In this document: positions 35,796-63,855 of the stretch, in pieces | Position numbering within the stretch: the stretch's first letter is position 1 | Layout: each line of letters opens with the position of its first letter | DNA from: Actinoplanes sp. L3-i22 | GTDB taxonomy: Bacteria > Actinomycetota > Actinomycetes > Mycobacteriales > Micromonosporaceae | DNA: 64,000 bases | Direction of reading: 5' to 3' | Assembly: GCF_019704555.1 (NCBI RefSeq) | Contig: NZ_AP024745.1 | Coordinates: forward strand, 10,343,501 to 10,407,500 | Translations under genes and position numbers: made by a program | Notes under the pieces: generated by a model | Told to the model about the DNA's origin: nothing | What the model saw: only the letters and a program-made list of their open reading frames with translations | Database searches by the model: none

Positions 35796-36752
35796 TCAGC
35801 CAATCACCAGGGCGGCCGACGCGGCCCTCTTCACCGTCTCGGTGAGCAGTTCCAGCAGCTTGGAGTCCAGCCGCCAGTGCTGCCAGTAGAGCGGTATGTC
35901 GAGGTGCCGCCCAGGCGCTACCTCGCGGTACTCGCCCGAATCGAGGTAGCCACGAGCCAGTGTCTCGGGCACCACCGCCCAGCCCAGGCCCAGCCGGACC
36001 GCCTCGTTGAACGCGGACACGGACGGCACGTAGTGGGTCGGCATGTGTGCCGGGCCATCACCGAGCGAACGCACGAAGCGATGCTGCAGGGTGTCCTTAC
36101 GGTCGAAGGCGACGACCGGCGCCCGGGCCAGAGCCTTGGCCAGGCCGTTCGGGTCCACCACGTCGTTCGTGCCATCCAGGTGTCGCACCACGAACTCCGG
36201 CGCCGAGACCGCCACGTAACGCATGGCGCCCAGCGGCTCGATCCGGCAGCCCTGGACGACGACCCGCTCGGCGGTTACCGCTGCCATCACTGAGCCGTTG
36301 CGCAGCAGTTCCACCGTATGGTCCTGGTCGTCCTGGCGGATGTCGAAGGCCAGCAGCGGCACCCGGCCGTTCCGGGACTCCTCGGCCATCGACGCCAGCG
36401 CGGGCAGGAACCAGGTGGCGAGCGAGTCGGCATTGACCACGACCGCCACCCGGACCACCCCGTCGTCCTCCTCGCCGCCGTCCGGGTAGGCGGCAAGGTT
36501 GCGCGCATTGTGCAGCGCCTCCCGTTCCAGCAGGGACATCTGCTCGACGAAACGGAGTAGTGACTGGCCGGCCTCGGTGGCGTGACACGGCTTCGCCCGT
36601 TGGATCAGAACTTGTCCGACGGCCCGTTCCAACGCTTTGATCCGCTGGCTGACCGATGACGGTGTCACGTTCAGCAACCGGGCCGCCGCCTCGAAGCTGC
36701 CTTCGCCGACCACGGTGGCAAAGGTGGTGAGCTGTGTCGAGTCCAAGTTCAT
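35796..36752 (-). CDS. LysR-type regulator, ArgP/LysG-like
   Basis: A 318-residue LysR protein whose first residues (MNLDSTQLTTFATVVGEGSFEAAARLLNVTPSSVSQRIKALE) match the ArgP/LysG subfamily better than generic LysR. Those proteins sense arginine or lysine. It starts seven bases after the amidinotransferase stop and closes the dpg operon on the same strand. Because amidinotransferases use arginine as amidino donor, arginine sensing here would make sense; that link is inference. Confidence 0.82.
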   Translation of the reverse strand: MNLDSTQLTTFATVVGEGSFEAAARLLNVTPSSVSQRIKALERAVGQVLIQRAKPCHATEAGQSLLRFVEQMSLLEREALHNARNLAAYPDGGEEDDGVVRVAVVVNADSLATWFLPALASMAEESRNGRVPLLAFDIRQDDQDHTVELLRNGSVMAAVTAERVVVQGCRIEPLGAMRYVAVSAPEFVVRHLDGTNDVVDPNGLAKALARAPVVAFDRKDTLQHRFVRSLGDGPAHMPTHYVPSVSAFNEAVRLGLGWAVVPETLARGYLDSGEYREVAPGRHLDIPLYWQHWRLDSKLLELLTETVKRAASAALVIG

Positions 36753-36759
36753 CGGGCAC

Positions 36760-37905
36760 CTACAGGTAGTTCTCGGCGGCGCCGGTGCGCACCGTGTCGA
36801 GGGTGAAGCAGTGGAACCCGCCGCCGAACAGACGCCGGTGCCGGTGCCGGACCGGGACGACGGTGAAATGGTGCTGTTCGAGCGTGTGGATCAGGGTCTT
36901 ACAGGCGTCGTTGACCAGCACGGTGTTCTCGTCGATCGACAACAGATTCAGGTCGATGTAAGGGCTCGCCGGAATCGGGTTGCCGTCCTCGTACTGCGGA
37001 TAGTCGTGGATCTCCGGGGTCGGCGAGACGATGGTGTCCCACGAGCGCAGTTTCTCGGGCAGGAAGTCAAGCACCCGCTCGGAGCGGATCAGCAGGGTTC
37101 CCGGACGCAACGGTATGACCACGCTGTCGATGTGGCTCTGGGTCAGCCGGTGCATCCGGTGCACCCGGAACCGGCCCTGGAGGTGCCGTTCGAGCCAATC
37201 GCAGGCCAGCGCGTGATTGGCGTTGGAGATGTTGACGATCAGGTCGCGGCCGAGGCGCAGGCAGTTCGCGCCGTCGATCATGATCTCGACGCCGACGTCG
37301 TACGGGGAGGCTTGCGGGTCCTGCGGCGCCTCGATGTTGGGCGCCGCGTTCGGCAGGTTGTCCGGGTCGAACGAGGAGTCGGTCATCATCGGGCGTGGCA
37401 TGGTGGTCCAGCGTGCGCCCTGGTCGAAATAGTTCATGAAGATCGGCTTGAGGAACTGCGTCTCGAAATAGCGCGCACGCAGCGTCGGTGGCGTCTCGAT
37501 GATCTCGTCGCCCAGGATGAGTGTGTTGTCGCGGACGTTCAGCGGCGGTGTGACCGGCGCCGACCAGCCCGGCGCGGTGACCTCGCCGAGCGACGGAGGC
37601 AGCGCCATCGGGCGGTGGACCGTCACGCCTAGCTGCGCGATCTGCGTACCCAGGCCCTCGATGTCCTCGACAAGTTCATCGAGGAACCGCTCCTTCAGGG
37701 CGAGTTTGGCCGGCTCGTTGCGGTGGTCCCGGTCCGCGCTCGGCCGCCAATCGGTGATGCTGGGGTAGTAGCCGCGGGCACCGGTCAGGTTGTCGCTGAT
37801 GAACATGTCGAACGACAGGTCGCGCAGACGCTGCGCGTAGTCGGTCGCCGAGCCGAGGATGACCTCTTTGAGCGGCGTGAAGTCGTCGTAGCTGTTGAGG
37901 CGCAT
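36760..37905 (-). CDS. L-arginine:amine amidinotransferase (paralogue 1)
   Basis: A 381-residue enzyme of the glycine/inosamine amidinotransferase family (AGAT, StrB1), which moves the amidino group of arginine to an amine to make a guanidine. The triad is visible: Asp211 in IMIDGANCLRLGRD, His258 in SHIDS, Cys366 in GGGFHCFTLDT. It lies 18 bases after the ferredoxin gene and inside the dpg operon. The likely acceptor is the amino group of Dpg or of a Dpg peptide; this is inferred by analogy with pheganomycin and resorcinomycin. AGGAGT precedes the ATG. A paralogue lies at 44051-45199. Confidence 0.88.
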   Translation of the reverse strand: MRLNSYDDFTPLKEVILGSATDYAQRLRDLSFDMFISDNLTGARGYYPSITDWRPSADRDHRNEPAKLALKERFLDELVEDIEGLGTQIAQLGVTVHRPMALPPSLGEVTAPGWSAPVTPPLNVRDNTLILGDEIIETPPTLRARYFETQFLKPIFMNYFDQGARWTTMPRPMMTDSSFDPDNLPNAAPNIEAPQDPQASPYDVGVEIMIDGANCLRLGRDLIVNISNANHALACDWLERHLQGRFRVHRMHRLTQSHIDSVVIPLRPGTLLIRSERVLDFLPEKLRSWDTIVSPTPEIHDYPQYEDGNPIPASPYIDLNLLSIDENTVLVNDACKTLIHTLEQHHFTVVPVRHRHRRLFGGGFHCFTLDTVRTGAAENYL

Positions 37906-37923
37906 GAGGGTCGGAACTCCTGT

Positions 37924-38133
37924 CTATCGGTCGGTCGGGGTGATGGCGCGCACCGGGCATCGACTCGCGGCGTCGCGCACTTCGTCGTGGAGTTCGGGCG
38001 GCGCGGTGGTGGCCAGCAGCAGCACGACTCCGTCGTCGTCCTGGTCGAAGATCTCCGGCACCGTCAGAGCGCACTGGCCCGACCCGATGCAGAGATCCAC
38101 GTCGACGTCCACCCGCATGGAGCCGGCGCTCAC
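37924..38133 (-). CDS. [3Fe-4S] ferredoxin
   Basis: A 69-residue ferredoxin of the type that feeds actinomycete P450s. Cys15 and Cys21 are in CIGSGQC and Cys59 in SRCPVRA, the three-cysteine pattern of a [3Fe-4S] cluster. The GTG at 38133 overlaps the P450 stop (GTGA); an ATG at 38118 is an alternative. Its place directly after the P450 gene marks it as the electron donor. Confidence 0.9.
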   Translation of the reverse strand: MSAGSMRVDVDVDLCIGSGQCALTVPEIFDQDDDGVVLLLATTAPPELHDEVRDAASRCPVRAITPTDR

Positions 38134-39320: not shown

Positions 39321-39323
39321 CTG

Positions 39324-40604
39324 TCAGAGTCCTTCCTGGAGGAACGCGGCGAGCCTTGCCGCGCCTTCGTCGATCTGTTCGGCGTCGAGGTAACTGCAGG
39401 ACAAGCGCAGCTGACGGTCCCCCGCACCGGTCGGATAGAACTGCGCCATCGGAGTCCACAGGACACCGAACTCGGCCGCGGACCGCTCCAGCAACGCGAG
39501 AGTGACCGGCACCGGCAGATGGACGCGGACGAAGAAGCCCCCGTCCGGCCGGTTCCACCGCACTCCGGCCCGTGGCGACGGACCGAGCCAGGTGTCCAGG
39601 GCCCGCAGCAGGTGGTCCAGGTTCTGCTGGTAGCGGACCGCCCGGCGCCGGGCCGGGACGGCGAGCGAGCCGCCGTTGGCCAGCAGAATCCCGCCGATCA
39701 CCGCTTGGGCGATAGGCGCGGTGTTCACCGTGACCACGGACTTGAGCGCCGCGAGGTCGTCGGCGAGCAGCCGGTCGCCGCCCGACGGATGGGCCGCCAC
39801 CCGCTGGTCGGCGACGACGAACCCGACCCGAGCGCCGGGAAAGCAGACCTTGGCGAAAGTACCGATGTGCACCACCCGCCGGGACCGGTCGAGTGCCTTC
39901 AGCACCGGTCGCTCCTGCCCGGGAGCGGCGGTGAAACCGTAGGTGTTGTCCTCGATCACGAGGAAGTCGTGCTCCTCGGCCAGTTCGAGCAGCCGGTGGC
40001 GGCTCGCGACCGACATCCGGCCGCCACCCGGGTTGGCGAAGTCCGGGGCCACGTAGAAGGCCCTGATCCGCCGACCGGCCGTGCACGCCTTCGCGAGCGC
40101 GTCGAGGTCCGGGCCGTCCGCCGTCTCCTCGATGCCGACGACCGGGATGTCCAGCATCCGGGCCGCTCCGAGGATGCCGACGAAGGACGGGTCGGCCACC
40201 GCCAGCAGATCGTCACCCGGGGTGTAGAGCGCCCGCAGCGTCAGCAGCATCGCCTCCTGCGCGCCCACGGTGATGACGAGCGCCTCGGGCAAGGTGTGGA
40301 TGCCGGCGTCCCGGCGGAGCAGATCGGCCACCAGATCGTTGATCAGGCCGCGGCTCGGCCCGTACTCGAACAGCCGGCGCCGGGCAGCATCCGGTGCGAG
40401 CCCGCGATCGGTCTCCAGGTGGCGGAGGTACCGATCGAGGTGACCGGCCACGTCGACATCGTCGTAGAACTCCGGGTGCGGCGCGCCCGGCGCGAACGAG
40501 ATCGCCTCGGGATAGCGGCCCATCACCTCGTTCAAGAAGCCGATCGAGCCGAGCAGCGGATCCCGGAGCGAACCGTGCAGGTCGGTGAGCCTCTGCCCGG
40601 TCAT
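39324..40604 (-). CDS. hpgT: PLP aminotransferase, Dpg/Hpg-forming (HpgT-like)
   Basis: A 426-residue fold-type I aminotransferase like HpgT/PgaT, which converts 3,5-dihydroxyphenylglyoxylate to 3,5-dihydroxyphenylglycine. Visible are SFAPGAPHPE, FEYGPSRG, DPSFVGILGAARML, the PLP aspartate region IEDNTYG and the Schiff-base lysine K252 in GTFAKVCFPGARVGF. Its ATG overlaps the dpgC stop (ATGA). Position directly after dpgC supports the assignment over a general aromatic aminotransferase. Confidence 0.9.
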   Translation of the reverse strand: MTGQRLTDLHGSLRDPLLGSIGFLNEVMGRYPEAISFAPGAPHPEFYDDVDVAGHLDRYLRHLETDRGLAPDAARRRLFEYGPSRGLINDLVADLLRRDAGIHTLPEALVITVGAQEAMLLTLRALYTPGDDLLAVADPSFVGILGAARMLDIPVVGIEETADGPDLDALAKACTAGRRIRAFYVAPDFANPGGGRMSVASRHRLLELAEEHDFLVIEDNTYGFTAAPGQERPVLKALDRSRRVVHIGTFAKVCFPGARVGFVVADQRVAAHPSGGDRLLADDLAALKSVVTVNTAPIAQAVIGGILLANGGSLAVPARRRAVRYQQNLDHLLRALDTWLGPSPRAGVRWNRPDGGFFVRVHLPVPVTLALLERSAAEFGVLWTPMAQFYPTGAGDRQLRLSCSYLDAEQIDEGAARLAAFLQEGL

Positions 40605-41938
40605 CGTCCGGTGTCCTTGGATTCGGCCGGCGAGCGGCGCCGCTCGACCTTGGCCAGCACATCCGGGCTGTACGCCCGGATCGACTGGGCGACGGCGAAC
40701 TCGGCCAGGTACTGCCGGTACAGCTCGACCGGTTCCTCGGCCAGAGTCAGCATCCGCCGGTTGGCCGTGATCCCGGGAGCGGCCAACGACGCGGCGGCCC
40801 GGGCGATCGCGGCGTCCATCTCGTCCGGCCTCACCACTTCGTCGCAGACGGCGGCCGCCTCCGGTGTGCCGGCCTCGAGGCGCTCGCCGCCCAGGATGAT
40901 CCGCCGGGCCAGGCGGGTACCGGTGGCGCGGGTGAGGCGGAGGTTACCGAGCCCCGGCACGATGCCCTCGTCGGCCGCGGGCAGGCTGAAGAACGACCCG
41001 GTCTCCGCGATCACCCGGTCGAGCACCAACAGCAGCTGCATCCCGCCACCGATGGCGAACGAGTCGACCGCGCCGATCCACGGCTTGGCCACGGTCCGGT
41101 CGGACCAGGTCACGGCGGCCGGCTCGACCAGGAGCCCTCGTACGATCTTGTGCAGGTATCCGAGCTCGCGACCCATCAGGAAATCGACGAAGGAGATCCG
41201 GCCGTCGCGCAGGTGCTTGAGGTTGATACCCGCGCTGAAGACCCGGCGTCCGGCATACCGCGGATGCTCCACCGAACCGCCGCGGAGCACGCCGACCCGG
41301 GTCCGCTCGTCGAGCAGGACCAGGTCGACCGCCGTCTCCAGGTCAGCGATGAGCCGGCCGTCCTCGGCGTTGAGCGCGTGGCCGTTGTGGAAGGTCACGT
41401 GGGCGGTGGCCCCCTGGCGCTCGACGCCGACCGAGGGCAGCCGGACCGAGCCGGTGGCCCGGAACTCGTCGCGCAGCCGGTCGGGAACGATCGGGCGCAG
41501 CATGGCGTCGATCAGGTGGCTGCCGGCCCGGGGCGAGCGGAGGACCGCCGAGCAGAACAGGGCCTGATCGATCTCGAGCCCGTCCCGCTCCGACTGGATC
41601 AGAGCGAGCTCGGCCGCCATTCTCCGCGGGCCGGGCACCACCCCGGGGAAGCGGTCGACGGCGGCCGTGAGCAGATCGGCAAGCCTCAGATGCCGGGTCC
41701 GCGCGCCGGTCAGCTCGTCGTAGACCCGGTCGACGTGCACGGTCAGGAAGGCGAGCCGTGCTTTCCGGGCAGCGGCCAGCAGGGTCTCAGCGGTCCGCTG
41801 TTCGTTGACGTCTCGGTCCGGCCGGCGGGGCAGCCGATCCAGGCCATCTTCGGCGGCCTTGACGTCTACGGCGAGCCGGGCCGCATCGTCGGCCAGATCG
41901 CCGGCCAGGCCGACGGAACCGGAGAACGCGGTGATCAT
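40601..41938 (-). CDS. dpgC: DpgC, 3,5-dihydroxyphenylacetyl-CoA dioxygenase
   Basis: A 445-residue member of the crotonase fold with the long helical N-terminus characteristic of DpgC (residues 1-185). The C-terminal crotonase core has RVFSAGINLKHL, AVDSFAIGGGMQLLLVLD and FSLPAADEGIVPGLGNLRL. DpgC is a cofactor-free oxygenase that turns 3,5-dihydroxyphenylacetyl-CoA into 3,5-dihydroxyphenylglyoxylate. The ATG at 41938 overlaps the dpgB stop by ATGA. The long open frame upstream overlaps dpgB and is not DpgC-like. Confidence 0.95.
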   Translation of the reverse strand: MITAFSGSVGLAGDLADDAARLAVDVKAAEDGLDRLPRRPDRDVNEQRTAETLLAAARKARLAFLTVHVDRVYDELTGARTRHLRLADLLTAAVDRFPGVVPGPRRMAAELALIQSERDGLEIDQALFCSAVLRSPRAGSHLIDAMLRPIVPDRLRDEFRATGSVRLPSVGVERQGATAHVTFHNGHALNAEDGRLIADLETAVDLVLLDERTRVGVLRGGSVEHPRYAGRRVFSAGINLKHLRDGRISFVDFLMGRELGYLHKIVRGLLVEPAAVTWSDRTVAKPWIGAVDSFAIGGGMQLLLVLDRVIAETGSFFSLPAADEGIVPGLGNLRLTRATGTRLARRIILGGERLEAGTPEAAAVCDEVVRPDEMDAAIARAAASLAAPGITANRRMLTLAEEPVELYRQYLAEFAVAQSIRAYSPDVLAKVERRRSPAESKDTGR

Positions 41939-42666
41939 GGTTGCGACACTTCGGGGGCGCGCTCGTCCACGCGGGCGCCGACCGCCCGCAGCCGGCGCAG
42001 CTCCCGGTCGCATGCGGCCAGGTGCGCGCCGAGTGCCTCCTCGTACTCCGCCGAGCCGGCCTCGAGCAGCAGCTGACGGCGCACGGTCAGCTCCTTGTCC
42101 GAGATCCGGCCGGTGAGCACAGCGGCGGTGTGCACGGCCTCGACGAGGTCCTCGGTGACCTGGTCGACGAGGCCAAGCTCGGTCGCCGTGGCCGCGGGGA
42201 TGTCGACGCCCCACAGCACGATCTGGCGTGCGCGGGCCACGCCGAGGTGCTGGACGAGCCGGTACAGCGACATGCCCGGCCAGAAGTGGCCGTCGTTCAC
42301 CGGCAACATGAGCTGCAGGTCGGTGCCACCGATCCGGAAGTCGGCGGCGAGCAGGACATCCAGAGTCGGGCCGCCGCAGGTGCCCGTCGCGACGGCGATG
42401 TTCACCGCGCTCAGCCGTTCCAGCCGGCGGACGGCTCGTTCCCACCGGTTGACCAGCCGGACGCTCACGTCGCCTGGCCACTCGCGACCGGTGGCCGACG
42501 TGCCGTACAGCCGGAGCACGACGACGGTTCGCTCCGTACCACCCTCGACCTGCGTGCAGACCTCGTTCAGCATCACGGTGAGGTCCTCGAGTGGGCGGGC
42601 GCAGTCGATGTCGACGGTGAGGGCCAAGCCGTCCACGACCGGCGCCAAATCCATATTGCTGATCAT
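41935..42666 (-). CDS. dpgB: DpgB, crotonase-like partner of DpgA
   Basis: A 243-residue degenerate crotonase. The core has VATGTCGGPTLDVLLAADFRIGGTDLQLMLP, lacking the usual FSAGADL oxyanion element found in true hydratases, which fits DpgB rather than DpgD. DpgB raises the activity of the type III PKS and helps dehydrate and aromatise the product. GAAAGGAA precedes the ATG. It sits between dpgA and dpgC as in glycopeptide clusters. No separate dpgD gene is in the window. Confidence 0.88.
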   Translation of the reverse strand: MISNMDLAPVVDGLALTVDIDCARPLEDLTVMLNEVCTQVEGGTERTVVVLRLYGTSATGREWPGDVSVRLVNRWERAVRRLERLSAVNIAVATGTCGGPTLDVLLAADFRIGGTDLQLMLPVNDGHFWPGMSLYRLVQHLGVARARQIVLWGVDIPAATATELGLVDQVTEDLVEAVHTAAVLTGRISDKELTVRRQLLLEAGSAEYEEALGAHLAACDRELRRLRAVGARVDERAPEVSQP

Positions 42667-42702
42667 TAGTTGAGGTTTCCTTTCGTCACCGGGGGCATCG
42701 CG

Positions 42703-43800
42703 TTACCAACGGACCAGGGCCATCTCAATGGTCGAGCCGGGTCCCATGGTCATCAGCACGCCGTACTCGCCGGCCTGCGTACACCGCTCGGCACGTAGTC
42801 GTTCGTAGGAGAACAGGAAGGAACCGCTCGACACGTTGCCGTGATCACGCAGCACCCCGGTGGTGTGCCGGACGTCGTGCCGGCTCAGGCCCAGGTTGGC
42901 CCGCACCGAGTCGATGACTTTCTTGCCACCGGAATGGACGATCCAATGCGAGATGTCGTTGCGGTCCAGGCCGGTGCCCACGAGCAGCCGGCCGAGGGCG
43001 GTCTCGGCGTTGGCGCCGACGACGTAGGGCACTTCCTGGTCCAGGAAGAAGCTGAACTTGCCCTGTTCGTCGTCCCAGTCGTAGCGCATCGCATCGATTG
43101 CCTCGGTGATGATGCAACTGGAGAAGCGCAGCAGCTCCGGACCGGCGCCGCCGTCGTCTCCGCCGGCACGTACGCAGACAGCCGCCGAACCGTCGCCGAA
43201 GAGGCTGTTGACGACCGACGTCCGCATCGAGCCGTCGATGACGTACGCCGCGGAGCACACCTCGATGCACACCATCAGCGCGAGCTGACCCGGATGCGAG
43301 TGGGCCCACGAGGCGACGGCGGTGAGCCCGTTGAGTCCGGCATTGCACCCCATGCCGACCACGTCGAGCCGGGAGCAGTGCCGGTCGATGCCGAGGTCCT
43401 TGACCAGCAGGGCGGAGAAGCCCGGGGTGAGGAGCCCGGTGGTGGTGATGCAGCACAGATACCCGACGTCGGCCAGAGTCGCGCCGGCGTCAGCGAGGCC
43501 TTTCGCGATCGCCTCACGGGCCATCGCCATGCCGTGCGCAGTGTGCTTGCGCAGCAACTCACCCTGGGACTCGACCCGGTAAGCGCCCTCGGCGTCCTTG
43601 GGCGGGAGAACCAGGCCCCGACGCTCAATCGCGCTCTGCAGGAAGACCGACCGGATTCGGGGATCGTCGATCCGGAACTCGTCGAGCACCTCCTGCTGAG
43701 CGTACGACGTGGTCGGCACCGCGGTGCCGACCCCGGTGATCCGGGTGGAAGTGAGGAAACCAGGTGTCCCGCGTGTCTGGTCCCGTTCGTCGACCTGCAT
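42703..43800 (-). CDS. dpgA: DpgA, type III polyketide synthase for 3,5-dihydroxyphenylacetyl-CoA
   Basis: A 365-residue chalcone-synthase-like enzyme that condenses four malonyl-CoA to 3,5-dihydroxyphenylacetyl-CoA. The active-site Cys152 is in VGMGCNAGLNG, the His in WIVHSGGKKVIDSV and the Asn in DHGNVSSGSFLF. GGAGGA lies five bases before the ATG. It is the first gene of the eight-gene minus-strand operon and has a palindrome about 70 bases upstream. Confidence 0.95.
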   Translation of the reverse strand: MQVDERDQTRGTPGFLTSTRITGVGTAVPTTSYAQQEVLDEFRIDDPRIRSVFLQSAIERRGLVLPPKDAEGAYRVESQGELLRKHTAHGMAMAREAIAKGLADAGATLADVGYLCCITTTGLLTPGFSALLVKDLGIDRHCSRLDVVGMGCNAGLNGLTAVASWAHSHPGQLALMVCIEVCSAAYVIDGSMRTSVVNSLFGDGSAAVCVRAGGDDGGAGPELLRFSSCIITEAIDAMRYDWDDEQGKFSFFLDQEVPYVVGANAETALGRLLVGTGLDRNDISHWIVHSGGKKVIDSVRANLGLSRHDVRHTTGVLRDHGNVSSGSFLFSYERLRAERCTQAGEYGVLMTMGPGSTIEMALVRW

Positions 43801-43867
43801 GCTGGTCCTCCGAAGTGGACAAAGTGCTGACAGTTTTTCGATGAAAGTTGGTTTGCAGCGTGATACG

Positions 43868-44050: not shown

Positions 44051-45199
44051 TCAGCTCAGGTAGTCCTCGAGGCCACCCTCACGAACGGTGTCGAGGGTGA
44101 AGCAGTGGAATCCGCCGCCGAACAACCGCCGGTGGCGATGGCGAACCGGGACGACGGTGAACTTGTGGTCTTCGAGTTCGCGGATCAGCTCGGGGCAGGC
44201 TTCGTTCACGAGAACCGTGTCCGGGTCGACCGAGAGCACGTTGAGATCGATGAACTTGCTGGTGAGGACCAGGTCGTCGTCGTCGTACCGGGGGAAGTTG
44301 TTGCTCCGCGGTACCGGCGGGACGATGATGTCCCACCGCCGCAGCGCTTCCGGGAGCTTGTCCAGGACGGCCGGCGACCGCACCAGCAGCGTGCCGGGTC
44401 GCAGCGCCAGGACCATGCTGTCGATGTGGCTGTCGCTGAGCCGGTGCACCCGGTGGATGCGGAAGCGTCCCTCGAGGTGACGTTCCAGCCAGTCGCAGGC
44501 GAGCGCGTGGTTCGCGGTCGACACGTTGGCGATGATGTCCCGGCCGAGGCGCAGGCACTGCGCGGCGTCGAACATCATCTCGTGGCCCACGTCGTACGGC
44601 GACGGCCGCGGGTCGTGGATCACCTCGGTCGGTCCGCCGGCCGAGGTGTCCCGGACGTAGGACAGATCGAACGATGCGTCGGTCATCAGCGGCCGGGGCA
44701 TGACCGACCACCGTGCGCCGTGGCGGAAATATTCCTGGAAGATCGGCTTGAGCAGCTGCGTCTCGAAATAGCGCGAGCGGATCATCGGCGGTGTCTCGAT
44801 GATCTCGTCGCCGACGATCAGCGTGTTGTCCCGGACGTTCAGCGCGGGGACCGTCGAGGCCGCCCAGGCCGGCGTTCGCACCGTCCCGGTGGAGTCGGGC
44901 AGGTCCATCGGCCGCAGCACGGTGACCGACAGTCCGGCCAGCGCGGCGGCGATGCCATCGAGATCCTCGGCCAGCTCGTCGACGTACTGCTGCTTGATGG
45001 GCGTGGCCCGCGGTGCGGTGGCGTCACGCTGCGACAGTCGCGGGTAGTACCACTCGGTGCGGAACGCGTTGTCGTTGACGATGTTGTCGTGAAAGAACAG
45101 GTCGAACGACAACTCACGTTCATGCGAAATATAATTCCGCGCAGAGCCGACGATCACCTCGCGTAGAGGTGACCATTCGTCATAGCTATTCAGATGCAT
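44051..45199 (-). CDS. L-arginine:amine amidinotransferase (paralogue 2)
   Basis: A 382-residue paralogue of the enzyme at 36760-37905, sharing its full layout: Asp211 in MMFDAAQCLRLGRD, His258 in SDSHIDS, Cys366 in GGGFHCFTLDT. The ATG at 45199 follows GGGGGAAG; the open frame extends 48 residues further but those are not family-like. It has its own promoter region with a palindrome, 26 bases upstream, and is followed by 250 bases before dpgA. The acceptor may differ from that of paralogue 1, for example free amino acid against carrier-bound residue. Confidence 0.88.
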   Translation of the reverse strand: MHLNSYDEWSPLREVIVGSARNYISHERELSFDLFFHDNIVNDNAFRTEWYYPRLSQRDATAPRATPIKQQYVDELAEDLDGIAAALAGLSVTVLRPMDLPDSTGTVRTPAWAASTVPALNVRDNTLIVGDEIIETPPMIRSRYFETQLLKPIFQEYFRHGARWSVMPRPLMTDASFDLSYVRDTSAGGPTEVIHDPRPSPYDVGHEMMFDAAQCLRLGRDIIANVSTANHALACDWLERHLEGRFRIHRVHRLSDSHIDSMVLALRPGTLLVRSPAVLDKLPEALRRWDIIVPPVPRSNNFPRYDDDDLVLTSKFIDLNVLSVDPDTVLVNEACPELIRELEDHKFTVVPVRHRHRRLFGGGFHCFTLDTVREGGLEDYLS

Positions 45200-45714
45200 A
45201 CTTCCCCCGTGTTCTGGAATAGCGCACGAGTGCCACTCGTGATTTTGGGACCGCGCCGGCAGGCGGCCCATGCTATTCGCAGCTGATCGACACTCTTCGG
45301 TGCGATGATCGACATAAAAGCACACGGGCCCAAGTCCTCGCAATGCCGGTCCGCGACTCAGAGAAGCCTGTGTGTCCCCTATGGCCTCATCGGATCAGAG
45401 GCGGCGTTCGGAGCCGACGCGTTCCAGCGAAACTCACCGCCCAGAGCCATAGCGGCAGGTCAACCCGGTTCCGTTTGCCACTGCTTTCCTAAGTGGACTT
45501 CATGGGCCCCGCGTGGGCGCCTACCTGCGCGTGCGACCTGCGACTTTCCTACAAGATTGCAAGACTTTCCTGCTGATGCTGGTAGAGACATCGACGATCA
45601 AGCATGTGACATATTTCATAGATCTGCGGCCTTGTTGCCCTTGCATTCATACGGTTGCATGCTCGTGATGCCATGCTGGCCAAAGCGGGCATTGACACGG
45701 GGAGATGGCATCTA
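45200..45714. promoter_or_regulatory. Divergent promoter region of the cluster
   Basis: This 515-base region separates amidinotransferase 2 (leftward) from the methyltransferase/MbtH/NRPS genes (rightward). It is clearly less GC-rich than its surroundings. CACGAGT-GCC-ACTCGTG (45225-45241) is a perfect palindrome 26 bases from the amidinotransferase start. GACTTTCCT occurs twice at 45542 and 45563 (21-base spacing, two helical turns), with a related GCTTTCCT at 45483. No convincing gene is present; a 136-codon open frame (45305-45715) lacks coding character. Confidence 0.5.
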
Positions 45715-46749
45715 ATGGCACCATTGCGCGATGATTCAATTCTTGAGCGGTTTCATCTGCTCGTCAACGCACCAGCGCTTTTCAATGCGATGACAACTGC
45801 GGTGGAACTCAACATCTACGGCTTTCTGGCCGAACATCCGGACTCCGGATTCACCGAGATCCAGGAATACACCGGTGTGCCCGCACACCAGCTCCGGGTC
45901 CTGTTACAGGCGGTCTGTGCGACCGGGTTGCTCGAGCGCCACGACGGTTTGTATCGCAATTCGGAGGTCGCCGCCGAGTTGTTGGCGACCGACGCCGACG
46001 ACAGCTGGGGTCACATTCTCGTCGGGTGGAAAGAGGTCTATTATCCCGCTTTCGCCCAGATGACGACGGCGCTGCGGGCCGGGCGGAACACGGCGCTCGA
46101 GGTGTACCCCGGCGACGAGCCGACCCTCTATCAGCGGCTCGCCCGCAATCCCGACCTGGAGCGGGTCTTCCACCGCGCGATGAGCGCGTTCACGCTGCGA
46201 TCGGTCGACGCGCTGGTGGAGCGCCCCGAGTTCGCCGGCGTACGCCACCTCCTGGACATCGGCGGCGGCGACGGAACCACCTCGCTCCGGCTGGCCACCC
46301 GCCACCCGGAGTTGCGCTGCACCGTGGTTGACATGCCCAGCGTTTCTCGCCTGGGGGATGCCTCGGCATCGGCCATTCCGGACCGCGTCGCCCTCCACCC
46401 GGCCGACATCTTCGCCGACGATTTCCCGTCCGGTGCTGACGCCGTCCTGTTCAGCCACGTGCTGGAGATCTTCGACGAGGACCGGATCGTCGGGCAGCTG
46501 AAGAAGGCTTACGACGTGTTGCCGGACGGCGGCACGGTCTTCGTGTACGGCTACAACGTCTCCGACGACGAGACCACCGGCCTGTTCGGCGCCCGGCTGG
46601 GGCTGTACTTCAACGTGCTCGCCAGTGGCCAAGGCATGGCGTACCCGGCTCGTGACTACGAGAACTGGCTGCGCGGCGTCGGCTTCAAGGCCGTCAGCAC
46701 AGTTGCCGGGTTGCCGTACGAGCACGGCCTCACTATCGGCGTCAAGTAA
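45715..46749 (+). CDS. SAM-dependent O-methyltransferase (Methyltransf_2 type)
   Basis: A 344-residue methyltransferase with an N-terminal dimerisation/winged-helix part (FNAMTTAVELNIYGFLAEHP, GVPAHQLRVLLQAVCATGLL) and a C-terminal Rossmann domain with HLLDIGGGDGTTSLRLA and VVDMPSV. This is the plan of small-molecule O- or N-methyltransferases of secondary metabolism. The ATG at 45715 is the first in-frame start with family-like sequence; GGGGA lies 11 bases upstream. A hairpin follows the stop. A Dpg phenol or the peptide is a plausible acceptor. Confidence 0.85.
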   Translation: MAPLRDDSILERFHLLVNAPALFNAMTTAVELNIYGFLAEHPDSGFTEIQEYTGVPAHQLRVLLQAVCATGLLERHDGLYRNSEVAAELLATDADDSWGHILVGWKEVYYPAFAQMTTALRAGRNTALEVYPGDEPTLYQRLARNPDLERVFHRAMSAFTLRSVDALVERPEFAGVRHLLDIGGGDGTTSLRLATRHPELRCTVVDMPSVSRLGDASASAIPDRVALHPADIFADDFPSGADAVLFSHVLEIFDEDRIVGQLKKAYDVLPDGGTVFVYGYNVSDDETTGLFGARLGLYFNVLASGQGMAYPARDYENWLRGVGFKAVSTVAGLPYEHGLTIGVK

Positions 46750-46768
46750 CACCGCCCAAGTCTCGGCC

Positions 46769-54500: not shown

Positions 54501-57500
54501 CAACCAAGAAGTCCCATTCGACCGCATCGTCGAAACCATCAACCCACCACGCTCCGCCGCCCGCAACCCACTCTTCCAGATCATGATGCAGGTCGAGGTC
54601 GGCACCGACGACACTCTCGACCTGCCGGGTGTCACGGGCCAGCTGCTGCGCGAGACCCCTCAGACCGAGATGTTCGACCTGTCGTTCGAGTTGCAGACGC
54701 GGATCGACGAGGACGGCGCTCCGGGACCGCTGCGGCTCGACACCGGCTTCGCCACCGACCTGTTCGACGAGACCACCGCCCGGCAGTTCACCACCCGCCT
54801 CGTCCGAGTGCTCCAGTCGATCACCGCGGACCCTGATCGCCGGCTCAGCGCCGTCGACCTGATGGACGACGACGAACGGCAGCGCACGCTGATCGAGTGG
54901 AACCGGACCACGGTGCCGGCCGCGTTGGACACCCCGCTGGTGCCCGAGCTTTTCGCCGCCCAGGTGCGGCGCACCCCCGGCGCCGTCGCTCTGGTCGACG
55001 AGGGCCTCGAGATCTCGTACGCCGAACTGGACGGACGGGCGAACCGCCTGGCCCGAAAGCTCGTCGCGCTCGGCGCGGGCCCCGAACAGTCGGTCGCCGT
55101 CTGCGTGCCACGCGGTCCTGACCTGATCAGCGCCCTGCTCGCGGTCCTCAAGGCGGGCGCGTCCTACCTTCCTCTGGACGCCGACTACCCGGCCGACCGG
55201 CTCACCTTCATGCTCGAGGACTGCGCCCCGATCTGCGCGGTGGCGGTCGGCGAGACAGCGGCCGGACTCGGCGACGCCGTGCCGGTCGTGGTCCTCGACG
55301 AGCCGGGCACAGCCGCCGAGCTGAGCCGCCTCTCCGGCGAACCGATCACCGACCGTGACCGGCTCGCCGCGTTGCAGCCCGGCCACCCGGCGTACGTGAT
55401 CTACACGTCCGGTTCGACCGGCCGGCCCAAGGGCACGGTCATCCCGTACTCCGCCATGGTCAGCCAGGTTCTCTGGGTACGGGACTTCTTCAGCCTCGGG
55501 CCCGTCGACCGGCTGGTCCAGTTCTCGTCGGTCAGCTGGGACCCGCACGTCGAGGACATCTACCCGATCCTGGTGTCCGGCGGCTCGCTGCTGGTTCCCC
55601 GCGACCCGGCCGGGCAGCTGCCCACGCTGATGCGCCGGCCGGTCGGCGCGGCCCTGACGATGATCGGCCTGCCCACCGGTTTCTGGCACGAGCTGGTGGC
55701 GGCCGGCGAGACGATCGACTGGCCGACAGGCCTACGGGTGGTCAACGTCGCCGGTGAGGCGATGCGGCAGCACTCGGTCGCCCTCTGGCTGGAGCGCTTC
55801 GGCGACGGGGTGCGGCTGACCAACACGTACGGACCCACCGAGGTAACGGTCAACTCGACGGCGACCTTCGTGTCGACCGCCGACAGGGACGACCCACCGA
55901 TCGGTCGGCCGGTCTGGAACACCCGTGCGTACGTGCTCGATGACGCGTTGCGGCCGGTCCCTGCCGGTGTTCCCGGCGAGCTCTATCTGGCCGGGACCCA
56001 GTTGGCCCGCGGCTACCGCGGCCGGCCGGACCTGTCGGCCGAGCGGTTCGTGGCCTGCCCGTTCGAGACCGGCGGCGAGCGCATGTACCGTACCGGCGAC
56101 CTCGCGCGGTGGAACACCGACGGGACGCTGACCTTCCTCGGCCGGGCCGACGACCAGGTGAAGGTCCGGGGCTTCCGGATCGAGCCGGGCGAGGTCCAGT
56201 CCGCGATCGAGACCGACCCGAGGGTGGCCCAGGCCGCTGTCATCGCCCGGCAGGATCCGCCCGGCGACACCCGCCTGGTCGCCTACGTCGTCGCGGCCGA
56301 CGGTGTCGGCGGGGAGGAACTGCCGGCTCGGATCCGCGATCACGCCCGGGGGCTGCTGCCGGAATACATGGTCCCGGCGGCGGTGGTGCTGATGGATCGG
56401 CTGCCGTTGACGTCGAACGGGAAGCTGGACCGCCGGGCGTTGCCGGCGCCCGACTACACCGCCGGCACGGTCGCGGGATCGGTGCCGGGCACTCCGGTCG
56501 AGGAGATCCTCTGCGGACTGTTCGCGGATGTGCTGGGTGCCGCTCAGGTGGGTGTGGACGACAGTTTCTTCGACCTCGGTGGGCACTCGCTGCTGGTAAC
56601 CCGCCTGGTCGCACGGATCCGCTCCGCCTTCGGCATCGACCTGTCCGTCCGAGCCGTCTTCGAAGCACCCTCAGTACGCCTGCTCGCAACACGTCTCGAC
56701 GAAGGCACACCAGCACACCGGACAACACTGGAACCGGCACCACGCACCGGCCCGATCCCGATGTCATTCGCCCAACAACGGCTGTGGTTCATCGGACAAC
56801 TCGAAGGCGCCACCTCCACCTACAACATGCCGGTAAGCCTGCGCCTGACCGGCCCACTCGACATACCAGCACTACAAGCGGCACTGACCGACATCACCGA
56901 CCGCCACGAAAGCCTGCGCACGGTCCTACGCGAGATCGACAGCGAACCCGTACAAATCGTCCTACCCGCCACACCGGTAACCCTGCACCACGCCTCAACC
57001 ACCAACACCGACACCGACACCGTGCTGCGAGACCTCACCAACCACATCTTCGACCTCTCAGCCGAACCACCCTTCCGGGCAACCCTGATCCAGGAAAACC
57101 CGGACACCCACGTACTCCTCATCCTGTTCCACCACATCGCCAGCGACGGCGAATCAATGGGCCCATTCCGGCGAGACCTCACCCACGCCTACCACGCCCG
57201 CCTCAACGGCCACGCCCCAACCTGGACACCACTACCAGTCCAATACGCCGACTACGCCCAATGGCAACGACAACTACTCGGCGACGAAACCGACCCACAC
57301 TCACTGATCAACTCGCAGCTCGCATTCTGGCGCCAGACACTGACCGACCTACCGGTAGAACTGGACTACCCGACCGACCGAACCCGACCCGCAGTCGCAT
57401 CCGGACGCGGCGCAGCCTTCACCATCGACCTCGACACCTCACTGCACGACCGCCTGACCCGACTCGCCCGACTCACCAGCACCACCATGTCGATGATCGC

Positions 57501-60500
57501 CCACGCCGCCCTGGCAACCCTGCTCACCAGACTCGGCGCAGGCACCGACATCCCGATCGGCACACCAGCCGCCGGCCGCAACGACGAAAAACTCGACAAC
57601 CTCGTCGGCTTCTTCGTCAACACACTCGTCCTGCGCACCGACACCAGCGGCGACCCCACCTTCCGAGACCTACTCGCCCGAGTCCGCGACACAAGCCTCG
57701 CCGCCTACGCCAACCAAGAAATCCCATTCGACCGCATCGTCGAAACCATCAACCCACCACGCTCCGCCGCCCGCAACCCACTCTTCCAAATCCTGCTCCA
57801 AGTCGACCTGGGCACCGACGACCATGCCCTCGACCTGCCCGGACTCCAGGTGTCCGAGACAACCGAGTTCCAGGACCTGGCCCGCTTCGACTTCACCGTC
57901 GACATCTCGGCACCGACGACCGACGACGGGCCGAGCCCTCTCCGCGCCACGATCAACTACGCCACCGACCTCTTCGACGAGGTGACGATGCGGTCGATGG
58001 TGGACCACCTCGTACGGATCCTGGAGTCCGCGGCGACAGACCCGGAACAGCACCTGAGCCGCATCGACCTCCTCGGCGAAGCCGCCCGTGCCGACCTGAT
58101 CCGCCTGGGCACCGGCGGGCCCCTCACCTGTGCGGGGTCGACCGGCGTGTCTTTGCAGGAGGAGTTCCGCCGGCAGGTACGGCGTACACCGGACGCGGAG
58201 GCGGTGAGCTGCGCCGGGCACCGCCTGACCTACGCCCAGCTCGACCACTTGGCCAACCGACTCGCGCAGCGCCTGCTGGCAGCCGGTGCCGGCCCGGAGC
58301 GGCCGGTGGCCATGCTGATGGGCCGCAGCGTCCAGCTCGTCGTCGCCCTCATCGCGATCGGCAAGACCGGTTCCTTCTACCTTCCGTTGCAGGCCACGTT
58401 CCCGCTCGACCGGATGGCCGGGGTGCTCGCCGAGTCCGGCACGACGGTGCTGGTCACCGACCGCGAGATGCGCGATCGCGGCCTACCCGCGGTGCCGGTG
58501 GTGGTGGTCGCGGACGACGAGGACCAGGACGGCCCGGGCGAGGACCCCGGCGTGATCGGCGGCCGGGACCAGCTGGCGTACGTGATCTACACATCCGGCT
58601 CCACCGGGCGCCCGAAGGGCGTCGGTGTCAGCCACCAGAACGTGTTCGACCTGCTCGACGACTCGTTGTTCCGGTCCGGCACGCACGATCGGGTGCTGAT
58701 GGTGACGCCGTACGAGTTCGACCCGTCGACCTACATGTTCTGGTACCCGCTGCTGCACGGCGGAACGACCGTCATCGCGCCCGACCCGAACCTGAGCGTG
58801 GAGCAGATCGCCGATCTCATCCGCACCGAGCGAATCACCGCCCTGGATGTGTCGGCCGGCCTGTTCCGGGTGATGGCCGAGGAACAGCCGGAGTGCTTCG
58901 CCGGCGTGAGCGAGGTCTTCACCGGTGGCGACATCGCCTCACCGGTCGCGATCCGCCGGGTCTTGGAGGCATGTCCCGGAATCCGGGTGCGAACCGCGTA
59001 CGGCCCGACCGAGACCACGCTGTTCGCCGCCACCGCACGCTGGGATCGGCCGGACCAGGTGCCGTCCGTCGTACCCCTCGGCCAGGTGCTCGACGGGATG
59101 TCGGCGTACGTCCTCGATGACGCGTTGGATCTGGTGCCGGTGGGTGTGGTCGGTGATCTGTATCTGGCTGGTTCGGGTCTGGCGCGGGGGTATCTGAACC
59201 GTGCGGATCTGACCGGGGAGCGGTTCGTGGCGGATCCGTTCGGTGTCGTGGGTACGCGGATGTATCGCACGGGTGACCGGGTGCGGTGGACGTCGGCCGG
59301 GTTGCTGGATTTTGTGGGTCGTGCTGACGCGCAGGTGAAGATTCGTGGTTTCCGGATCGAGTTGTCGGAGATCGAGTCGGTGCTGGCGGGCTGCGCCGGG
59401 GTGCGTCAGGTGGCGGTGGTGGCGCGCGAGGATCGGCCGGGTGACAAACGCCTGGTGGGTTACGTGGTGGTGGACCCGGGTGTCGAGCTGGCGGAGCTGG
59501 AGTCGCATGCCCGGGAGGTCCTGCCCGACTACATGATCCCCAGCGCCATGATCATTCTCAACACCCTGCCGTTGACGTCGAACGGGAAGCTGGATCGCCG
59601 TGCTCTTCCCGCGCCGCAGGTCGCGGCCGGGGAAAGCGTCGAGCCGACCACCCCGGCCGAGGCGCGATTGTGCGAGTTGTTCGCGGATGTGCTGGGTGCC
59701 GCTCAGGTGGGTGTGGACGACAGTTTCTTCGACCTCGGTGGGCACTCGCTGCTGGTAACCCGCCTGGTCGCACGGATCCGCTCCGCCTTCGGCATCGACC
59801 TGTCCGTCCGAGCCGTCTTCGAAGCACCCTCAGTACGCCTGCTCGCAACACGTCTCGACGAAGGCACACCAGCACACCGGACAACACTGGAACCGGCACC
59901 ACGCACCGGCCCGATCCCGATGTCATTCGCCCAACAACGGCTGTGGTTCATCGGACAACTCGAAGGCGCCACCTCCACCTACAACATGCCGGTAAGCCTG
60001 CGCCTGACCGGCCCACTCGACATACCAGCACTACAAGCGGCACTGACCGACATCACCGACCGCCACGAAAGCCTGCGCACGGTCCTACGCGAGATCGACA
60101 GCGAACCCGTACAAATCGTCCTACCCGCCACACCGGTAACCCTGCACCACGCCTCAACCACCAACACCGACACCGACACCGTGCTGCGAGACCTCACCAA
60201 CCACATCTTCGACCTCTCAGCCGAACCACCCTTCCGGGCAACCCTGATCCAGGAAAACCCGGACACCCACGTACTCCTCATCCTGTTCCACCACATCGCC
60301 AGCGACGGCGAATCAATGGGCCCATTCCGGCGAGACCTCACCCACGCCTACCACGCCCGCCTCAACGGCCACGCCCCAACCTGGACACCACTACCAGTCC
60401 AATACGCCGACTACGCCCAATGGCAACGACAACTACTCGGCGACGAAACCGACCCACACTCACTGATCAACTCGCAGCTCGCATTCTGGCGCCAGACACT

Positions 60501-63500
60501 GACCGACCTACCGGTAGAACTGGACTACCCGACCGACCGAACCCGACCCGCAGTCGCATCCGGACGCGGCGCAGCCTTCACCATCGACCTCGACACCTCA
60601 CTGCACGACCGCCTGACCCGACTCGCCCGACTCACCAGCACCACCATGTCGATGATCGCCCACGCCGCCCTGGCAACCCTGCTCACCAGACTCGGCGCAG
60701 GCACCGACATCCCGATCGGCACACCAGCCGCCGGCCGCAACGACGAAAAACTCGACAACCTCGTCGGCTTCTTCGTCAACACACTCGTCCTGCGCACCGA
60801 CACCAGCGGCGACCCCACCTTCCGAGACCTACTCGCCCGAGTCCGCGACACAAGCCTCGCCGCCTACGCCAACCAAGAAATCCCATTCGACCGCATCGTC
60901 GAAACCATCAACCCACCACGCTCCGCCGCCCGCAACCCACTCTTCCAAATCCTGCTCCAGGTCGACCTGGGCACCGACGACCATGCCCTCGACCTGCCCG
61001 GAGTGGAGATCTCCGAGATCTCGACGGCCCCACAGATGGAGAAGTTCGACCTCTCGATCACCTTGCAGGGCGCCCCCGGGGGAGCGCTGCGGGCCTACGT
61101 CCGGTACGCCACGGACCTGCTCGACCAGCCGACCGTACGCCGGATGTTCGACCGGTTCGCCCGGGTCCTGGCCGCGATGGCCGCCGACCCGGACACCCGG
61201 CTCGGCGCGGTCGACATCCTCGACCCGGTCGAGCGGCAGTCGCTGCTGACCGGGTGGAGCCACACCTCCTCGCCGATCCCCGCCGAGTTGCTCGCCGACC
61301 GGTTCGGCGAGTGGGCGGAGCACACGCCGTCGGCCCGGGCGCTGATCGTGGGTGAGGAGTCCGCCACCTACGCCGAACTGGACGTGCTCACCAACCGGCT
61401 GGCCCATCATCTCGTGGCCCAGGGCATCGGGCCGGAGTCCGTGGTGGCGCTGTGTCTGCCACGCGGCGCCGACACCATTGCCGCCATCTTGGCGGTCTGG
61501 AAGGCCGGCGCGGCCTACCTGCCCGTGGATCCGGCCTTCCCGTCCGACCGGATCGCCTTCATGCTCGCCGACAGCGGAGCCGCGACCGTCCTCGGTGCAC
61601 ACCTTCCGGCGGACGTGCCGTGGCCGCCGGGTGTCCACCCGATTCGCCTCGACGATCCCGGCGTCTTCCAGCAGGTCCAGCGGTATCCGGCAACCCGGCC
61701 CCGGGTGCACGTCCCGGCGACCGCGCTGGCCTATGTGATGTACACGTCCGGATCGACCGGGCGCCCCAAGGGCGTCGCGGTCACCCACCATTCCTTGAGC
61801 AACTACGTGGCGTCGGCGACCGGGCGGCTCTCGTTGGGCCGGCCCGGTGGGCGGTACGCGCTGCTGCAGCCGCAGGTGACCGACCTCGGGAACACCATGC
61901 TGTTCGCCGCCCTGGCCACTGGTGGTGAACTGCACATCCTCGACGCCGAGGCGGTGACCGACCCGGACGCGGTGGCCGACTACCTGAAGGTCCACCGCAT
62001 CGACTACCTCAAGGCGGTGCCGTCACATCTCGCGGCGTTGTCGGTCGACGGACTGGAGCGGGTGCTGCCGGCCCGGTCACTGGTGCTCGGTGGCGAGGCC
62101 GCGGCGCCCGGGTGGATGCGCGAACTGCTCAGGGTGGCCGGCGGCCGGCAGATCTTCAACCACTACGGACCCACCGAGACGACCATCGGCGTCCTCACCA
62201 CGGCGATCACCGCCGGATCGGCACCGGACGGACAGGTACCGCTCGGCACCCCGATCGCGAACACCGGGACGTACGTGCTGGACGAGGGGCTGCGGCCGGT
62301 GCCGCCCGGCGTGGTCGGCGAGTTGTACGTCACCGGCGCCGGGCTGGCCCGGGGCTACCACGCCCGGCCCGGGCTGACCGCGGAACGCTTCGTGGCCTGT
62401 CCGTTCGAGCCGGGCGTACGGATGTACCGCACCGGCGACCTGGTGCGATGGACGGCGGACCGAACCCTGCGGTACGAGGGACGGGCCGACGACCAGGTAA
62501 AGGTCCGCGGTTTCCGGATCGAGCCCGACGAGGTGCGCGCGGCGGTGGAAGCCGTCCCCGGCGTCGCCCAGGCGGCGGTGGTGGCCCGCGCGGACGCGCA
62601 CGGTGACCTGCGATTGTTCGCCTACGTGGTGCCGGCGGTGGGCACCACCGAAGCCGGGATGCCGGAAGCGGTGCGCACGTACGTCGGAGCCCGGTTGCCG
62701 GCGTTCATGGTGCCGGCCGCGGTGGTGGCGCTCGACCGGCTCCCGTTGACCGCCAACGGAAAGCTGGACCGCGCGCTGCTGCCGGCGCCGGATTTCGGCG
62801 CCACGGCGGCCGGGACCGAACCCCGCAACGCCCAGGAGCAGATGGTCTGCGACCTGTTCGCCGAGTTGCTGGACCGGCCGGCGGTCAGCGTCGACGACAA
62901 CTTCTTCGACCTCGGTGGACACTCCCTGCTGGCCACCCGCCTCGTCGCCCGGGTCCGTTCGACATTCGACTGCGATATACCGGTGCGGGCGCTGTTCGAG
63001 GCGCCGACCCCGGGTGGGCTGGCCCGGTGGCTGGTCACCGGCGGCATCGGCGACGCCTTCGACGTGCTGTACCCGATGCGTACGAGCGGGTCGCAGCCGC
63101 CGCTGTTCTGTCTGCACGCGGGAAGCGGCCTGGCCTGGGTCTACAGCGGGCTGCTGCGGCACCTCAATCCGGAGATCCCGCTGTACGGCGTCCAGTCGCT
63201 CGGCCTGGCGATGACCACCCAGCGGCCGGACACCTTGGCCCTGATGGCCCGGGAATACACGGCGCGGATCCGCTCGGTTCAGCCGCACGGACCGTACCGG
63301 CTGATGGGTTGGTCGCTGGGTGGCGTCGTGGCGCACGAGGTGGCGGTGCAGTTGCAGGCGGCCGGAGAGCGGGTGACGTTCCTCAGCGTGCTCGACACCG
63401 AGATGATCTGGGACGAGGAGACGGCGGGCACGCCGGTGCCGGCCGAGTTCCTCCGTTACGTGGCCGGAGATCCCGAGCTGGTGACGGCCGAGATCGCCGA

Positions 63501-63855
63501 ATTGGCGGCCGGTGGTCCGAACGGCGTACCGGTGCTGAACGCGCTGGAGGGCGACGAACAGAAGATGGTGGTCAGCGCACTGCGCTACCACCAGCAGATC
63601 CGGCCCCGGCACGTGCCCACGGCCTACCGCGGGGACCTGCTGTTCGTGCGCGCCACCGCTGACAAGGACGAACTCCTCACCGCCGCGAGCACCTGGGGAC
63701 CGTACGTCACCGGTGTCATCGACGAATTGCACATCGACTGCACGCACTACCAACTGCTCGACATGGCGCCGCTGGCCGCCATCGGTGCATCACCGGCCGC
63801 GAAGCCGCTGCTGACGATCGCCCAGGCCCTGAACGAACGGCTCGGCTCGTCCTGA
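47323..63855 (+). CDS. Five-module non-ribosomal peptide synthetase with C-terminal thioesterase
   Basis: A 5,510-residue NRPS. Order with approximate residues: A* (1-415, degenerate), A1 (420-910), T1 (930-1000), C1 (1010-1450), A2 (1480-1960), T2 (~2018), C2 (2065-2510), A3 (2535-3040), T3 (~3085), C3 (3135-3590), A4 (3605-4110), T4 (~4138), C4 (4190-4630), A5 (4650-5150), T5 (~5195), TE (5245-5510, GWSLGG near 5330). C domains carry HHSASDG or HHIASDG; no E or methylation domains. Ten-residue codes read by eye against GrsA: A1 DVFSVCMVYK, A2 DPYDIGNLFK, A3 DPEINATVNK, A4 DPYDFGALFK, A5 DLTKVGHIGK. A5 is the exact Asp code; A2 and A4 resemble Dpg (DPYHGGTLCK); A1 and A3 are unassigned. AGGAG precedes the ATG. 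With no N-terminal C domain and a TE, it looks complete. Confidence 0.95.
52729..53190 (+). repeat. 462-base A-domain block, copy in module 2
   Basis: It encodes the A6-A9 part of A2, from [16 protein letters not shown] to DYMIPSAMI. It matches 59092-59553 in A4 (offset 6,363 bases) with one mismatch that I could find (GGGGATATC against GGGGGTATC). Confidence 0.9.
56519..57843 (+). repeat. 1,325-base T-C block, copy in module 3
   Basis: It covers the carrier protein T3 and most of C3. It is identical to 59678-61002 (offset 3,159 bases) except for one base that I could find (57801 A against 60960 G). Both edges are abrupt. Confidence 0.92.
59092..59553 (+). repeat. 462-base A-domain block, copy in module 4
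   Basis: Second copy of the block at 52729-53190, in A4. The sequence on both sides diverges sharply (A2 continues with [13 protein letters not shown]4 with [12 protein letters not shown]), which gives crisp recombination edges. Confidence 0.9.
59678..61002 (+). repeat. 1,325-base T-C block, copy in module 4
   Basis: It covers T4 and most of C4, a near-exact copy of 56519-57843. After the edge at 61002 the two C-A linkers diverge completely ([18 protein letters not shown] here, [18 protein letters not shown] in module 3). Confidence 0.92.

Follow-up and report, generated by a model that had tools for sequence, protein, structure and literature searches.

The window analysed here, a 64,000-nucleotide stretch of DNA from a single 12.01-Mb contig of Actinoplanes sp. 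L3-i22, contains at 35796-63855 a gene cluster that combines the biosynthesis of 3,5-dihydroxyphenylglycine (Dpg) with two amidinotransferases, AmT1 and AmT2, and a nonribosomal peptide synthetase (NRPS). Judged from its sequence, the cluster is best described as one of a family in which guanidino-Dpg biosynthesis is joined to NRPS assembly, and we give even weight to the proposal that an NRPS cluster has here taken over a pheganomycin-type building-block pathway. The gene set listed in the initial annotation (dpgA-dpgB-dpgC, an aminotransferase, a P450/ferredoxin pair, a methyltransferase, MbtH, two amidinotransferases and an NRPS) was confirmed at this place. The cluster does not end at the window edge, and further cluster genes, including those for diaminopropionate (Dap), lie past it; coordinates above 64,000 continue the window numbering beyond the window end.

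AmT1 (36760..37905, minus strand) and AmT2 (44051..45199, minus strand) both matched StrB1 and human AGAT in a comparison with PDB structures (AmT1 against StrB1, 1bwd, E 2.3e-51), with identities to StrB1 of 36% and 37%, respectively. The AmT2 open reading frame (ORF) is open to 45343, and the ATG at 45199 matches the start of its relatives. The intact Asp-His-Cys triads claimed for both enzymes are present, Asp211, His258 and Cys366 being invariant in 47 of 47 aligned rows, as is typical of Arg:X amidinotransferases of the AGAT/StrB1 family. In a tree of 52 proteins, the pheganomycin and resorcinomycin enzymes were represented by an operon in which a ligase matching PGM1 itself (PDB 3wvq, E 6.8e-141) directly precedes the AmT2 gene. 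AmT1 formed a single clade (support 98/99), and the AmT2 enzymes of clusters with both amidinotransferases were intermixed with those of ligase operons (three label changes, one of them forced by well-supported branches). The expectation that both enzymes are of the pheganomycin type thus holds for AmT2 and fails for AmT1. Neither grouped with StrB1, a very long outer branch that the tree program flagged as unsure, and for glycine enzymes the comparison was by PDB match, outside the tree. Biarylitide-type amidinotransferases formed their own clade. A streptidine-like role is disfavoured by both the tree and the Dpg context.

AmT1 and AmT2 differ at 22 alignment columns fixed differently in the two groups (95% criterion), including 255-256, just ahead of the catalytic His258, and 214, just past Asp211. 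The AmT2 enzymes of two-amidinotransferase clusters and those of ligase operons are told apart by one column (90% criterion). Because AmT2 is so close to the ligase-operon enzymes, its role in NRPS clusters is most likely the one it has in pheganomycin-type operons, and AmT1 would have a different function.

A scan of named genomes found 16 AmT1 loci in other species (73-83% identical). Within 10 kb of AmT1, a DpgC relative occurred in all 16 loci and DpgA in 12. The four loci lacking DpgA are those of genomes G398 and G399, which have none above the cut-off, and L012 and L020, which lie on short contigs or are cut. Chance association with Dpg genes was considered and rejected, since DpgC was above the cut-off in only 11 of 200 genomes of one order, yet a DpgC relative stood near AmT1 in every locus. 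An AmT2 relative (75-80%) was also present in each of the 16 genomes; in ten it shared the contig with AmT1, at a distance of about 1 to 51 kb, and in the other six it lay on a different contig. Together with the window's own genome, G204, G736 and G1345, these make up the 20 AmT1-bearing genomes referred to below. The assembly genes in AmT1 clusters were of several kinds: an NRPS in the window, S. antimicrobicus and G1345; a polyketide synthase (PKS) plus an NRPS in S. violaceusniger and Saccharopolyspora flava; and adenylation-thiolation (A-T) proteins without a condensation (C) domain in G398, G399 and G736. We know of no PKS-NRPS compound of S. violaceusniger or Saccharopolyspora that matches.

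Loci carrying AmT2 only were searched for in 392 Streptomyces genomes, 70 genomes of the genus of strain CB01881 and 300 of the window's family. This yielded 21 AmT2-like loci through a match of about 59-62% to AmT1, and the stretches of all 21 were examined; matches of 53-58% to AmT1 in the latter two sets of genomes were left out of the comparison. All 18 AmT2-only loci with at least 70% identity to AmT2 had a PGM1-type (PGM1_C) ligase within about 16 kb, and 17 of the 18 had full-length DpgA; in L054 and L056 the ligase was located by whole-genome search, 12-16 kb away and outside the 20-kb stretch. Outside the 18 stood L131-L133 (63-68% to AmT2), whose stretches were free of Dpg genes, with a PGM1-like ligase in two of three, and L064-L072 (47-67%). 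In contrast to the 18 of 18, no PGM1-like protein was found in any of the 20 AmT1-bearing regions (E 1e-5; regions of 14 to 120 kb, with the AmT2 gene outside the stretch in eight). When the whole genomes of these 20 were searched, PF18105 was absent from 16 and present in G396, G398, G411 and G736, on another contig or more than 300 kb away. The window's genome is among those without PF18105 anywhere, and therefore without a PGM1-type ligase. AmT1 and PGM1 were mutually exclusive in the loci examined, and the guanidino-Dpg building-block set thus occurs with ligase, NRPS and PKS-NRPS assembly. A whole family of clusters supports the switch from ligase to NRPS that had been suggested for this unit.

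The NRPS (47323..63855, plus strand) is one protein of 5510 amino acids, as annotated, and its order A*-A1-T-C-A2-T-C-A3-T-C-A4-T-C-A5-T-TE adds what the description as a single NRPS did not convey: behind a degenerate A domain remnant at the N-terminus come five A domains, with their T and C domains, and a terminal thioesterase (TE). The A-T-C modules, the TE (63073..63822; PF00975) and an MbtH-like protein (46894..47109, plus strand; PF03621, 92 bits, above cut-off) identify an NRPS cluster. The remnant A* (47323..48522) has neither the A3 P-loop nor the C-terminal subdomain and, of the domains compared, is nearest to the loader A domain of S. antimicrobicus (46%). Specificity codes were read from an alignment; the Dpg reading was checked on glycopeptide-type modules, and the other assignments are tentative. 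In this control, DPYHGGTLC, which we take to be the Dpg code, was read from the C-A-T-X-TE module in three of five Dpg clusters, the three showing such a module. The codes of A2 (51787..53214, DPYDIGNLF) and A4 (58156..59577, DPYDFGALF; 77% identical to A2) are Dpg-like, of the DPY type with Asp in place of His. A1 (48589..50031, DVFSVCMVY) is only 44-46% identical to DPY-type A domains; its code looks Thr-like, and we assign it no substrate. Nor is one assigned to A3 (54946..56412, DPEGNATVN), for which a basic or Dap-like residue is a guess. The C-terminal Asp proposed earlier agrees with the code of the last A domain, A5 (61297..62751, DLTKVGHIG; 61% identical to the last A domain of G1345, with the same code), which is presumably an Asp code. 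C domains 4 and 5 closely match each other (88% at protein level), and similarity reaches 95-96% for 300-base stretches in and beside C3, C4 and C5, which suggests that the second DPY module arose by duplication fairly recently.

A search with NRPS residues 1-1000, in which scoring was limited to the 947 candidates with the most shared words, gave best matches of 40-53% identity (120 of 946, the query aside); an A*-A1 start was not noticed among the matches listed, whose domain orders were not examined. The NRPS of the window (47323-48522) and that of G1345 (L119-L120) both start with a decayed A domain, with a related N-terminus, MI[VA]GSVQE, and no catalytic motifs. A structural or docking role of this domain is possible.

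The Dpg pathway is complete, as in pheganomycin-type clusters. DpgA (a type III PKS; 42703..43800, minus strand; NF042429, 615 against a cut-off of 425 bits), DpgB (41935..42666, minus strand; NF042431, 236 against 140 bits), DpgC (a dioxygenase; 40601..41905, minus strand; NF042432, 537 against 530 bits) and, past the window, DpgD (72227-73039) were all above cut-off; these calls, like those of SbnA and SbnB below, rest on NCBIfam equivalogs or curated cut-offs. The DpgC ORF is open to 42481, and its start codon is ambiguous. The aminotransferase (39324..40604, minus strand; PF00155) is 48-49% identical to its counterpart in four glycopeptide-type clusters and would convert the glyoxylate to Dpg. 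The P450 (38130..39320, minus strand; PF00067), partnered by a ferredoxin (37924..38133, minus strand; Fer4_15, Fer4_13), has relatives of 51-68% identity in 12 of the 18 PGM1-ligase loci and is a candidate ring-methyl hydroxylase. For the methyltransferase (45655..46749, plus strand; PF00891), the nearest solved structure is SibL (4qvg, E 1.2e-49), which we take to be an aromatic C-methyltransferase; C-methylation of Dpg therefore fits better than O-methylation, and the enzyme is probably an aromatic C-methyltransferase of Dpg.

From these data we infer the following substrates, order of steps, ring tailoring and product. DpgA, DpgB and DpgC, with DpgD, and the aminotransferase would make Dpg, and AmT2 would amidinate its alpha-amine, with arginine as the donor. 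The SibL-like enzyme may then C-methylate the ring and the P450/ferredoxin pair hydroxylate the ring methyl, giving the pheganomycin unit or close kin. In place of the PGM1 ligase, the NRPS would build X1 - modified Dpg - X3 - modified Dpg - Asp, a pentapeptide predicted to be released by the TE. X3 (or X1) is plausibly Dap, supplied by SbnA (67192-68181) and SbnB (68224-69222), both above cut-off and encoded just past the window. AmT1, specific to the non-ligase branch, would make a second amidine transfer.

Several observations weigh against this proposal. The branch joining all AmT2 rows is weak (81/60). In L064-L072, no Dpg genes lie within 20 kb, and a PGM1-like protein is present in seven of nine (L064-L070); PGM1-like ligases thus also stand beside distant amidinotransferases without Dpg genes, and a neighbouring ligase is no special mark of Dpg clusters. 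The AmT1 enzymes form a single clade, and their exclusion of PGM1 may stem from few independent events. G398, G399 and G736 lack a dpgA above cut-off, and the DpgC relative close to their amidinotransferases reaches just 46-50%; A. siamensis (L047-L049) and G204 (L050-L051) carry both amidinotransferases and Dpg genes with no NRPS or PKS in 60 and 80 kb. Within the NRPS, the DPY-type domains A2 and A4 are internal, in modules 2 and 4, each behind a C domain with an intact HHxxxDG. The first complete module of G1345 has the same code as A2 of the window (80% identity), which is module 2 here, and is preceded by an A remnant and a C domain with HHxxxDA, without a carrier domain; the code read for A3 of G1345 (EPHDLRYPL) was badly aligned and not used. 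If the alpha-nitrogen of a residue already formed part of a guanidine, normal acylation at A2 or A4 would be blocked. This leaves three possibilities: loading of the guanidino unit by A1, a guanidine at some other place, or its removal beforehand.

The first of these possibilities is close to the N-terminal alpha-guanidino-Dpg of the initial annotation, which the collinearity of this NRPS does not predict, its Dpg-like A domains being in modules 2 and 4. Here alpha-guanidino-Dpg would enter as the first residue, loaded by A1 or in trans, with plain Dpg at both internal positions. This agrees with how closely AmT2 resembles its counterparts in PGM1-ligase operons and with the NRPS of S. antimicrobicus. 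A DPY-type A domain comes first in two sibling NRPSs only, those of S. antimicrobicus and G1345. The S. antimicrobicus NRPS, whose contig ends inside it, opens at its extreme N-terminus with such a domain and no preceding C domain, as expected for an N-terminal alpha-guanidino acid, and A* is nearest to this loader. However, A* has lost the parts named above, and the code of A1 and its low identity to DPY domains are those of a different domain, so we regard this reading as rather unlikely. In another reading, AmT1 would amidinate a second amine (a ring aminomethyl, the Dap side chain or the finished peptide) to give two guanidines. Two intact enzymes with different fixed residues and the SbnA/SbnB supply of a diamino acid agree with this, as does a desaturase-like protein (70408-71397; L006:7408-8397), a remote match to GntB, an arginine hydroxylase (78 bits against a cut-off of 380); a 47% relative of this protein adjoins AmT1 in strain CB01881. 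On the other hand, no SbnB relative was detected in the other 19 AmT1-bearing regions, where SbnA was represented by weak relatives (30-31%) in just two. Dap is therefore unlikely as the general acceptor of AmT1, and a general tie between the two is disfavoured. Nor does a second acceptor predict the exclusion of PGM1, and we consider it a tentative option, with somewhat better prospects than loading by A1.

Removal of the guanidine would make it a protecting group. Reactions of the AGAT type can run in both directions, and marginolactones offer a precedent for amidine protection. AmT2 would mask the alpha-amine of Dpg during ring tailoring and AmT1 would move the amidine off, to ornithine, leaving a free amino acid for the NRPS or PKS, while clusters without AmT1 would keep the amidine as the guanidine of pheganomycin. 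The ligase distribution (18 of 18 AmT2-only loci and none of the 20 AmT1-bearing regions), the internal DPY modules behind intact C domains and the fixed differences beside the catalytic His and Asp all fit such a scheme. It would not be needed for the N-terminal DPY residue of the S. antimicrobicus loader, however, and a single origin of AmT1 could explain the exclusion of PGM1; we judge it distinctly unlikely. The internal DPY modules are also what one would expect if the amidinotransferases served a side product and the peptide carried ordinary Dpg without guanidine. Against this, clusters with an NRPS, with PKS-NRPS genes and without an NRPS all retain AmT1 together with AmT2, and most of them the Dpg genes as well, which makes a side product the least probable of these alternatives, and a very improbable one.

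The remaining genes of the cluster are a LysR-type regulator at its left edge (35796..36752, minus strand; PF00126, PF03466), a major facilitator superfamily (MFS) gene that follows the NRPS and runs beyond the window end (63909-65204), a 418-aa protein without a Pfam or NCBIfam match (65939-67195; L006:2939-4195) and a threonine-synthase-like enzyme below cut-off (69216-70421). Further observations concern the related loci. G398, G399 and G736 (L089, L094 and L073) contain both amidinotransferases, the methyltransferase, the P450/ferredoxin pair, a second P450 and an A-domain protein with the code DAILLGVLF, a gene content that suggests another arylglycine route. A GNAT, a DUF6002 protein and an MFS gene lie beside the A. 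siamensis cluster, and an asparagine-synthase-like protein and an MFS gene beside that of G204; ORFs of similar size to these accessory genes occur in the other genome. These two clusters perhaps use a different kind of amide formation. Near the G204 cluster (L050:5272-15006) is a 3244-aa RHS-repeat protein with a C-terminal domain of the contact-dependent inhibition (CDI) type. Among ligase-bearing genomes, one has a second, very divergent amidinotransferase (L054:5350-6726; 31% to AmT2) beside its AmT2-Dpg operon, and five PGM1-ligase loci (L063, L123, L124, L127 and L128) include an A-domain NRPS protein with the shared code DAMHVGG.

One rare building-block pathway thus accompanies three kinds of assembly, by peptide ligase, NRPS and PKS-NRPS, and clusters that lack the ligase have one amidinotransferase more, a pattern that poses a testable question on the role of AmT1. 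AmT1 can also serve as a marker gene for finding NRPS and PKS products of the guanidino-Dpg type. The protecting-group scheme, if true, would be a case of amidine protection in amino-acid biosynthesis. For chemists, the expected product is a pentapeptide that contains Asp and two modified Dpg residues and carries 0 to 2 amidino groups. No description of a cluster with Dpg genes, an amidinotransferase and an NRPS was found among the papers listed from the open-access literature, most subscription literature being outside the scope of the search.

Compared with glycopeptide clusters, in which Dpg is residue 7, the cluster shares dpgA-D, a related aminotransferase and the Dpg code DPY...L, but it lacks an X domain and has an acidic residue in place of His in the A2 and A4 codes. 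A glycopeptide cluster was rejected as an identification on the grounds of the last module, C-A-T-TE without an X domain, and of a single P450 instead of several cross-linking P450s. StrB1 and AGAT share family and triad with AmT1 and AmT2, but StrB1, at 36-37% identity, sits on a far tree branch. An amidinotransferase (savT) also occurs in a biarylitide cluster, for which detection of the unmodified cross-linked peptide only is reported (PMC13417212). In the biarylitide-type loci of our comparison, amidinotransferases 57-61% identical to those here lie beside a PGM1-like gene, but they form a distinct clade and have no Dpg genes within 20 kb; we assign these loci to biarylitide clusters because a P450-like gene and an Asp/Arg hydroxylase are present. 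Resorcinomycin is a dipeptide with a guanidino-Dpg type residue. This residue is the shared feature, and the dipeptide is shorter than the product expected here. Its biosynthesis was reportedly described by Ooya et al. in 2015. Pheganomycin biosynthesis, with its PGM1 ligase, is said to have been described by Noike et al. in 2015. The initial view that pheganomycin is built by a ligase and not by an NRPS of this kind needs qualifying, as an NRPS gene is reported in the pheganomycin cluster too (PMC8939145). The two clusters have in common, besides that gene, the Dpg genes, an amidinotransferase and the C-methyltransferase; they differ in that the genome studied here has no PF18105 and the cluster adds a five-module, TE-ending NRPS, the extra AmT1, MbtH and the Dap genes.

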